Shown here: positions 873 to 57,363 of the stretch, piece after piece
How the letters are laid out: every line of letters begins with the position of its first letter
Position numbering within the stretch: position 1 is the first letter of the stretch
NCBI GenBank assembly: GCA_902612235.1
Contig: CACMCJ010000002.1
Coordinates: forward strand, 62,001 to 126,000
From: an uncultured Pelagibacteraceae bacterium
GTDB taxonomy: Bacteria > Pseudomonadota > Alphaproteobacteria > Pelagibacterales > Pelagibacteraceae
Direction: 5' to 3'
DNA: 64,000 bases
Notes under the pieces: generated by a model
Told to the model about the DNA's origin: nothing
Databases searched by the model: none
Seen by the model: the letters and a program-made list of their open reading frames with translations, nothing else
Program-made: the position numbers and the translations under genes

Positions 873-940
873 TTTATTTCTACTTTTAAGGGTATTTATT
901 TAAGATTGACTTTTTTACTCTTTTATAAGAGAATCTCTTT

Positions 941-1015
941 GTAACGGGAGAGACCAATAAAATTGGCGCCGAAGGAGCAAATACCCTAAAAACTCTCAGG
1001 CAAAAGGACCGTTAC
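941..1015 (+). promoter_or_regulatory. Glycine riboswitch, aptamer 1
   Basis: P1 stem GTAACGG(941-947)/CCGTTAC(1009-1015) with glycine aptamer core GGGAGAGACC...GGCGCCGAAGGAGCAA...AACTCTCAGGCAAAAGGACC. Confidence 0.93.
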
Positions 1016-1020
1016 AGTAA

Positions 1021-1088
1021 TAACTCTGGAAAGAAGGCAATTGCCTCACCGAAGGATTAAATCTCTCAGGTAAAAAGACAGACAGGGA
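1021..1088 (+). promoter_or_regulatory. Glycine riboswitch, aptamer 2
   Basis: CTCTGGAAAG...CACCGAAGGATTAAATCTCTCAGGTAAAAAGACAGACAGGG directly after aptamer 1 and upstream of gcvT. Confidence 0.92.
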
Positions 1089-55377: not shown

Positions 55378-55405
55378 TTGACAATTAATGTTAAAGGTCC
55401 ATAAT
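55378..55405 (+). promoter_or_regulatory. Putative sigma70-type promoter for metY leader
   Basis: TTGACA (55378-55383), 16-nt spacer, CATAAT (55400-55405); SAM-II aptamer begins about 9 nt downstream. Confidence 0.65.
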
Positions 55406-55413
55406 CAAAATAT

Positions 55414-55466
55414 AGCGCTGATTTAAGTCAAATTGCTGAGCGCTTTAAAAATCCAGCTAAAGCGAT
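55414..55466 (+). promoter_or_regulatory. SAM-II riboswitch aptamer
   Basis: AGCGCTGATTTAA..TTGCTGAGCGCT..AAAAATCCAGCTAAAG; P1 AGCGCT/AGCGCT (55414-55419/55439-55444), matches the SAM-II pattern as I know it. Confidence 0.9.
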
Positions 55467-55477
55467 AAAGTCTTTAG

Positions 55478-55506
55478 ACCACCGCTTTAGCCGGTGGTTT
55501 TTTTTT
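55478..55506 (+). terminator. Intrinsic terminator of the SAM-II expression platform
   Basis: ACCACCG-CTTTAGC-CGGTGGT followed by TTTTTTTT. Confidence 0.93.
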
Positions 55507-55528
55507 GAATATCTCTCAAATTAAAACT

Positions 55529-55583
55529 AGGCATTTGAACTATATTGTACGCCTGACATATCGTCGAAGTACTAAAAAAGGAG
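55529..55583 (+). promoter_or_regulatory. SAM-V riboswitch overlapping metY ribosome-binding site
   Basis: AGGCATTTGAACTATATTGTACGCCTGACATA..AAGTACTAAAAAAGGAG; P1 AGGC/GCCT; GGAG at 55580-55583, ATG at 55590. Confidence 0.9.
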
Positions 55584-55589
55584 AGAAAA

Positions 55590-56882
55590 ATGAGTAAAAT
55601 AAAACATCCAGAAACAATTGGTTTACATGGAGGTGAATATAGGAGTGATCCTGCAACAACTTCTGTAGCTGTTCCAATTTATCAAACTACATCATATCAA
55701 TTTAAAAATGCAGAAACAGCTGCAAATTTATTTGGATTAAAAGAATTTGGAAACATTTACACAAGAATAATGAATCCAACTTGTGATGTATTAGAAAAAA
55801 GAGTAGCCGCATTAGAAGGAGGTATGGCTGCAGTTGCAGTTGGATCTGGTCAAGCAGCTTCCGCATTTTGTATCCAAAACGTTTGTCAAGCTGGGGATAA
55901 TATTGTTTCCTCGACTGATTTATATGGTGGAACAGTTAATCTTTTCAAAAATACTTTAAGGATGCAAGGTATAGAAGTAAGATTTGCTGACCCTGCAGAT
56001 CCAAAAAACTTTGAAAAATTAACCGATGAAAAAACAAGAGCTTATTACGGTGAGTCTTGCCCAAACCCTTACTTAAGAGTTTTTCCAATTAAGGAAGTTG
56101 CAGACATCGGTAAAAAACATGGTATCCCATTAATTATCGATAACACTGCAGCACCTGTAATTTGTAAACCTTTAGAGCATGGAGCGGCAATAGTCATGCA
56201 CTCTCTGACAAAATATATTGCTGGTCATGGAACATCGATAGGTGGAATAATAGTTGATAGTGGAACTTTTGATTGGGTAAAAAATCCAAAGAGACAACCT
56301 CTGTTTAATGAACCTGATCCAAGTTACAATGGAGCAGTATGGGGAAGAGATGTTCCAAAATTAACCGGTGCTAATATACCTTTTGCGATAAGAGCTCGAG
56401 TAGTTTTACTTCGAGACTTAGGTGCTCCTTTATCACCTTTTAATGCATTTCAGATTATACAAGGACTAGAAACTGTTGCATTAAGAATGAAACAACACTG
56501 CTCTAACGCTGAAAAAGTGGTTAAGTTTCTTGAGTCACAAAAAAAAGTGAAGAATGTAATTTATCCTACTAATCACCAAGGTGAGATCAGGGAAAGAGCA
56601 AAAAGATATATGAAAGGTGGCTACGGATCTTTAGTGGGAATGGATCTGGGCAGTAAGGAAGCTGGAGCAAAGTTTATAGATAACTTAAAGTTGCTTTATC
56701 ACGTAGCAAATATTGGTGATGCAAGAAGTTTAGCTATTCACCCAGCATCAACAACACATAGTCAATTAAATGATAAACAGTTGGCTGAAGCCGGTGTAAC
56801 ACCAGGATATGTAAGATTGTCAATTGGTATTGAACATCCTGATGATATCATTGCAGATATTGAGCAAGCATTAGCAGCTTAA
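55590..56882 (+). CDS. metY: O-acetylhomoserine sulfhydrylase (Cys/Met metabolism PLP enzyme)
   Basis: SVAVPIYQTTSYQFKNAETAANLFGLKEFGNIYTRIMNPT, HSLTKYIAGHG; SAM-responsive leader. Confidence 0.93.
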   Translation: MSKIKHPETIGLHGGEYRSDPATTSVAVPIYQTTSYQFKNAETAANLFGLKEFGNIYTRIMNPTCDVLEKRVAALEGGMAAVAVGSGQAASAFCIQNVCQAGDNIVSSTDLYGGTVNLFKNTLRMQGIEVRFADPADPKNFEKLTDEKTRAYYGESCPNPYLRVFPIKEVADIGKKHGIPLIIDNTAAPVICKPLEHGAAIVMHSLTKYIAGHGTSIGGIIVDSGTFDWVKNPKRQPLFNEPDPSYNGAVWGRDVPKLTGANIPFAIRARVVLLRDLGAPLSPFNAFQIIQGLETVALRMKQHCSNAEKVVKFLESQKKVKNVIYPTNHQGEIRERAKRYMKGGYGSLVGMDLGSKEAGAKFIDNLKLLYHVANIGDARSLAIHPASTTHSQLNDKQLAEAGVTPGYVRLSIGIEHPDDIIADIEQALAA

Positions 56883-56928: not shown

Positions 56929-57363
56929 TTATCTTCTTTTATGGATATCTGAATTTCTAGCTAAGTCCTCTATTTTAGAAGATTTTATTTTATGGATATC
57001 TGAATTTCTAGCTAAGTCCTCTATTTTAGAAGATTTTATAATTTTTTGTTTTATAACCTTATTTTTAGTTTGAGAAATATTTTCTTTTATCGCAGAACAT
57101 ATTTTTGAGTTTGTGGACTCTAAAAACTTCACACATTTTTCTTTTTTATTTTCTGGGTTGAATTCTTTCATATAATCTAAAGCATGTTCAGACGGAGATT
57201 TTCCAGTTTGTTTTTTTACACCATAACTTACCGCAGATGATAAAGCTGACTGCGTAAGTTTTCCTCCGCTTGATGTTGACGCCGGACCAAGAAACGCTAC
57301 TGTTTCAACACCACAATTGGTTAAAAATAAAAATGTTAATAATAAACCTAAAATTTTACTCAT
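56929..57363 (-). CDS. Small lipoprotein of unknown function with C-terminal 17-aa tandem repeat
   Basis: Lipobox LLLTFLFLTNCG; C-term IKSSKIEDLARNSDIHK x2. Confidence 0.75.
   Translation of the reverse strand: MSKILGLLLTFLFLTNCGVETVAFLGPASTSSGGKLTQSALSSAVSYGVKKQTGKSPSEHALDYMKEFNPENKKEKCVKFLESTNSKICSAIKENISQTKNKVIKQKIIKSSKIEDLARNSDIHKIKSSKIEDLARNSDIHKRR
56937..57039. repeat. Perfect 51-bp tandem direct repeat, two copies
   Basis: TTTTATGGATATCTGAATTTCTAGCTAAGTCCTCTATTTTAGAAGATTTTA at 56937 and again at 56988. Confidence 0.97.

Follow-up and report, generated by a model that had tools for sequence, protein, structure and literature searches.

A probable antiterminator formed by the SAM-II ligand-binding strand in the tandem SAM-II/SAM-V leader of metY in SAR11 bacteria

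According to our analysis the metY leader of a SAR11 (Pelagibacter-type) genome, known as 965 kb in 26 contigs and examined here within a window of 64,000 nucleotides (the whole stretch of DNA that was analysed), is a bi-mechanism SAM-II/SAM-V tandem in which the 3' strand of SAM-II P2 doubles as an antiterminator and becomes locked after read-through; we give this reading a probability of about 0.8. The sequence elements, their conservation and their predicted energetics are documented here.

Organisation of the metY leader

On the forward strand, a promoter-like TTGACA/CATAAT pair, a SAM-II-type aptamer, an intrinsic terminator and SAM-V follow each other 5' of metY (Table 1). The first-pass annotation had described two SAM aptamer classes in series, a terminator and metY, and all of its coordinates and features were verified. 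The promoter call comes from a consensus scan, and a consensus match alone is no evidence of function; the RNA start that it implies would lie at about 55412, immediately 5' of P1. SAM-II, an intrinsic terminator and SAM-V at the ribosome-binding site in one transcript make up the bi-mechanism tandem layout as defined in PMC9481103, and the window leader is a new member of this known class. That such tandems had been reported already, as was remarked from the start, is confirmed by the literature: 120 and later 149 cases were listed, in which SAM-II is taken to act on transcription and SAM-V on translation (PMC9481103).

The complementarity on which our reading turns is exact, since GCTAAAGCG (55456-55464) and CGCTTTAGC (55483-55491) were confirmed as reverse complements by reading the coordinates. 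The second strand had been placed on the 5' arm and loop of the terminator, which stands for the whole 7-nt loop, and for the 5' arm in its top two pairs only (55483-55484). Neither sequence has a further copy in the 64-kb window, where shuffles expect 0.14-0.21 per 64 kb. The GUC-UUUA-GAC spacer hairpin is found in some relatives only.

Table 1. Features of the metY leader and gene (window positions)
Feature	Position	Strand	Details
Sigma-70-type promoter (consensus match)	55378..55405	+	TTGACA 55378-55383, 16 nt, CATAAT 55400-55405; 11/12 consensus matches
SAM-II-type aptamer	55412..55464	+	Rfam RF00521, 25.2 bits (sub-threshold), match 55405-55481
SAM-II P1	55414-55419 with 55439-55444	+	Covaries among relatives
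SAM-II P2	UUGC 55433-55436 with GCUAAAG 55456-55462	+	
AAAAAUCC	55447..55454	+	Outer antiterminator extension; predicted partners 55494 and 55496-55502 (fold)
GCUAAAGCG	55456..55464	+	SAM-II P2 3' strand, also the putative antiterminator 5' strand
Spacer hairpin GUC-UUUA-GAC	55470..55479	+	Within the antiterminator fold; would sequester the base of the terminator 5' arm
Intrinsic terminator	55476..55506	+	Hairpin 55476-55500; core ACCACCG 55478-55484 with CGGUGGU 55492-55498; nine U (9-T tract) 55498-55506
CGCUUUAGC	55483..55491	+	Putative antiterminator 3' strand; terminator loop and top of 5' arm
SAM-V aptamer	55520..55586	+	Overlaps Shine-Dalgarno AAGGAG; Rfam RF01826, 68.7 bits, cut-off 41
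metY, O-acetylhomoserine (thiol)-lyase, 430 aa	55590..56882	+	TIGR01326, 568.5 bits, cut-off 495.1

Elsewhere on the same stretch we observed a glycine riboswitch aptamer (935-1021, forward strand; 73 bits, cut-off 32) and, 3' of metY, a direct repeat of about 54 bp (56930-57040) inside a small reverse-strand gene (56929-57363), which encodes IKSSKIEDLARNSDIHK twice and whose product has no NCBIfam match.

Identity of the two aptamers

In the covariance-model search that had been proposed as a check, SAM-V came out as a clear Rfam match above the curated cut-off (Table 1), and the two GUAC copies noted earlier (GTAC in the DNA, 55547-55550 and 55569-55572) are present and mutually paired in the SAM-V model. 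The window element is like the metY SAM-V with a crystal structure (RF01826; PMC6061858) in fold by covariance model, in position at the ribosome-binding site and in gene, and SAM binding is published for the SAM-V of metY and bhmT. In part of genus g1 (L061, L067, L085, L090, L095 and others) a strong hairpin between SAM-V and metY captures the SAM-V Shine-Dalgarno sequence, with -18.2 kcal/mol in one example, and a conserved 15-codon ORF (MNETIRETVRGKING) overlaps the metY start in another frame.

The same check went against the SAM-II element, whose match to RF00521 stays below the cut-off (25.2 vs 36 bits), although this cut-off is a search criterion and no structural definition. The SAM-II of HTCC1062 bhmT, whose SAM binding is published, scores 15.5 bits with this model, and not one of the 147 Pelagibacteraceae genomes searched holds an RF00521 match above the cut-off, so the Rfam threshold excludes the marine group. 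By manual count the window aptamer equals that of bhmT at 46 of 52 positions; GAUUU, AAAUUGC and GCUAAAG are present, and all ligand contacts listed in PMC11508383 (in bhmT numbering U10, U11, A20, U21, U22, U46, A47 and A49) are retained. By analogy with this relative, the window copy should bind SAM.

Among relatives P1 is paired in all 113 leaders and shows two-sided changes, with pair 6 being U-A in 52, C-G in 36 and U-G in 25, and pair 3 being C-G in 107 and U-A in 4. The outer P2 extension of SAM-II usually consists of about five G-C-rich pairs; in the window no more than three weak pairs (GUC with GAU) can be drawn by eye, and GCG occupies the extension site.

Conservation of the complement

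Leaders were gathered from metY neighbours, from SAM-V and SAM-II matches and from patterns, and since they share descent the counts given below are not independent. In 116 of 136 SAR11 SAM-II leaders with a terminator, GCUAAANNN can form at least eight of nine pairs with the sequence downstream. Within the terminator family of the window each of the nine antiterminator pairs is formable in 94-97 of 98 unique leaders, across a spacer of 6-15 nt. Six bases of the terminator loop stay the same in 94 or more of these 98, and the last loop base (C in 56, U in 40, A in 2, G in none) is mostly C or U, both of which pair with the aptamer G. Conservation of the complement in homologous leaders had been fixed beforehand as a test able to refute the antiterminator, and the complement is indeed kept; the covariation that was sought along with it is not seen, as SAR11 leaders show one-sided and wobble changes only in the 9-bp helix, because the aptamer strand hardly varies. 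About ten leaders carry a mismatch in the complement, and four tandem leaders with a terminator (L115, L117, L121 and L289, from other SAR11 genera) have no complement to GCUAAA. The terminators of these four are of an ACCGCC...GGCGGU type (GCC/GGC-type).

Sequences flanking the aptamer strand follow the terminator as well. GCG follows GCUAAA in 111 of 136 terminator-bearing leaders versus none of 67 without a terminator, and an AAAUCC-type sequence stands just 5' in 87 of the 99 leaders that share the window's terminator type, in 0 of 16 with other terminator types and in 0 of 67 that are terminator-less. We considered that the hairpin may be just a common SAR11 terminator and rejected this, as a search pattern with an unconstrained loop retrieved 20 CCACC...GGTGG terminators among 41 relatives, and 19 of these terminators carry a GCTTTAG[CTA]C loop and are this SAM-II-linked element. 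The element was looked for in viral contigs and not found there.

Predicted folding of the leader

Folding, in a model that omits pseudoknots and ligand, predicts a bistable switch in the window leader: -13.0 kcal/mol for the antiterminator and -12.0 for the terminator. As the transcript grows, the antiterminator attains a probability of about 1.0 once 55492 is reached, ahead of the 3' arm of the terminator, and it still holds 0.97, against 0.02 for the terminator, when the U-tract is complete. When GCUAAAG is withheld, which mimics SAM, the terminator rises to 0.94, and results are similar at 15 and 25 C. In the predicted fold AAAUCC faces the 3' arm and U-tract of the terminator, a pairing that probably extends the antiterminator helix. 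A competing hairpin of the P1 3' arm with the SAM-II strand (55441-55447 with 55458-55464) dominates short nascent window RNAs, with a probability up to 0.85; it was set aside as a local feature that the P1 3' arm of bhmT does not keep.

Among 115 unique platforms, a nascent antiterminator dominates in a fraction of 0.96; this falls to 0.17 when the loop alone is shuffled, but only to 0.87 when the spacer is shuffled. Swapping GCG for the flank of terminator-less aptamers gave a modest drop, from 0.96 to 0.82 of leaders with a predicted antiterminator. The antiterminator is favoured in 131 of 136 leaders when nascent and in 89 of 136 at the end of the U-tract, so that in about a third of leaders the switch would need to be kinetic.

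Discussion

The antiterminator, which the first-pass annotation had offered as its own reading, finds support in pairs formable in nearly all leaders of the family, in a loop specific to SAM-II-linked terminators and in a folding switch, and we infer from them SAM-dependent termination with a one-time SAM-II decision. At low SAM, GCUAAAGCG would pair with CGCUUUAGC as the latter exits the polymerase instead of closing the SAM-II pseudoknot, and the upstream AAAUCC would pair with the terminator 3' arm and the U-tract, so that the terminator would be blocked and metY transcribed. At high SAM, GCUAAAG would be held in the pseudoknot, the terminator would fold and transcription would stop. The read-through mRNA would keep the antiterminator fold, so that SAM-II would act once, during transcription, and SAM-V at the ribosome-binding site would be the remaining SAM control. 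It is thus probable that the SAM-II decision is made once and then locked, with SAM-V continuing the control.

It may be argued that the terminator is constitutive, as in simple attenuation, that its loop complement was inherited without function and that SAM-V is the sole regulator. The stronger SAM-V match beside a sub-threshold SAM-II and the terminators of L115, L117, L121 and L289, which have no complement, would agree with this; yet the loop of a constitutive terminator needs no conservation, and six loop bases are kept in 94 or more of 98 leaders, the same complement recurs on another stem in a second terminator family, and bhmT transcript levels go up under sulfur limitation in HTCC1062. 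We therefore see simple attenuation as unlikely. Action in trans appears to us rather more doubtful still: the terminated leader of about 95 nt would be a small RNA or a protein binder, its loop and AAAUCC would act in trans and CUUUAG would be the contact site. SAM-II leaders of Sinorhizobium meliloti are indeed known to be released as sRNAs, and the loop is unusually conserved, but such action does not account for a loop that matches its own aptamer strand, for the same match at metX on another stem, or for GCG following GCUAAA solely where there is a terminator.

A reversed logic, in which GCUAAAG docks in a kissing-like manner on the intact terminator loop, stabilises the terminator without SAM and lets SAM turn the gene on, would fit a complement that spans the entire loop yet just two stem pairs. 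We hold it as very improbable, as prediction has the 9-bp helix in place before the 3' arm of the terminator emerges (probability about 1.0 at 55492), retaining the five lower terminator pairs would by geometry leave 2 nt across a 9-bp helix, the pairing of AAAUCC with the U-tract also disfavours termination, and genes of this set rise when sulfur is limiting.

The antiterminator reading can be compared with the tandem of 'Pelagibacter ubique' HTCC1062 bhmT (Poiata et al. 2009, as cited in PMC5069961 and PMC9481103; Feng et al. 2024, PMC11508383), which has the same order of SAM-II, intrinsic terminator and SAM-V at the ribosome-binding site. Both leaders share the GCUAAAGCG/CGCUUUAG complement (L019 for bhmT) along with the largely identical aptamers (46/52); the gene differs, and the terminator top pair is intact in the window and broken in bhmT. 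In the work of Feng et al. (2024, PMC11508383) SAM-II by itself responds to SAM but is silent in the full-length bhmT tandem; the linker was implicated and the cause called puzzling. We recovered the bhmT locus with a numbering that agrees with three published primers, and on this scale GCUAAAGCG spans nt 44-52 and CGCUUUAG spans nt 66-73. To free nt 44-50, folding predicts a cost of 0.8 kcal/mol for the truncate and 10.2 for the full RNA, and with a primer site blocked in the full RNA it becomes 6.1 (primer 3), 9.6 (primer 2) or 8.9 (primer 1) kcal/mol. By our estimate the ligand can pay about 4.7 kcal/mol (1.2 uM aptamer, a value quoted in PMC5069961, and 2.5 mM SAM), so that the full RNA would be silent and primer 3 would rescue it in part; the rescue of SAM-II reported for primer 2 is not explained by these energies. 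Over 96 GCG-type leaders the median freeing cost is 0.8 kcal/mol for the aptamer alone and 7.2 for the read-through leader. The predicted locking of the SAM-II strand in read-through RNA would fit most of the published 'linker-mediated inactivation'.

Transcriptional SAM-II riboswitches are also known from other Alphaproteobacteria (Corbino et al. 2005, PMC1273637; S. meliloti metZ, PMC9373788), where, by prediction for 26 loci, the 3' strand of the aptamer likewise competes with the 5' half of an intrinsic terminator. In these predictions the terminator 5' arm is engaged by the outer P2b strand AGGUCGG (mean probability 0.63, against 0.13 for GCUAAA), whereas in SAR11 the predicted contact is between the terminator loop and the ligand-binding core GCUAAA (mean nascent probability 0.92). 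On these predictions the SAR11 antiterminator is a shifted variant, with the contact moved to the ligand-binding core and the terminator loop. The pairing is not stated in the literature that we searched, which did not extend to the original 2009 SAM-V paper, where it may be discussed.

A second terminator family is found at metX, with a GCCCAG...CUGGGC stem whose top holds UUUAGC or UUAGC, complementary to GCUAAA. The 52-nt metX SAM-II RNA is a model in structural work (its sequence is quoted in PMC8494917) and a 'rare translational SAM-II' in PMC6061858. We found this exact RNA in the metX leader of a SAR11 genome (L159, G094), where an intrinsic terminator GCCCAG(UUUAG)CUGGGC with nine U lies within a few nucleotides 3' of SAM-II and UUUAGC complements GCUAAA. 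The same terminator stands at metX in 64 of 197 genomes, and the arrangement is listed also for L165, L167, L169, L177 and L305. It suggests that metX SAM-II works by termination and not only by hiding of the ribosome-binding site.

Other SAR11 leaders are organised differently. Genus g4, HTCC1062 included, has a SAM-II-like core 25-40 nt 5' of SAM-V with no terminator in between (most of L003-L032, L213 and L214, the latter at 732.4-733.2 kb in HTCC1062), so some SAM-II/SAM-V tandems have none. HTCC1062 metY (L213) is of this kind, unlike the window leader. In g4 the CCGAUUU of SAM-II is often complementary to an AAAUCGG just 5' of SAM-V. In the SAM-II-like elements L252-L258, GCUAAAGGAGG runs straight into the Shine-Dalgarno sequence and start codon, and for this reason they are probably translational.

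Taken as a whole, a platform specific for SAR11, in which the ligand strand contacts the loop and its flank the U-tract, SAM-II is locked after a one-time decision, the inert tandem SAM-II is explained and the metX RNA is natively transcriptional, is a picture towards which we lean with moderate confidence. The metX side result bears on the interpretation of a much-used SAM-II structure. The conserved complement offers a concrete and mutable explanation for the inert SAM-II of the full-length tandem, and suggests that the tandem is better studied as it is transcribed than as refolded full-length RNA. What an abundant and streamlined ocean bacterium would have built here, in about 175 nt, is a two-level gene switch.
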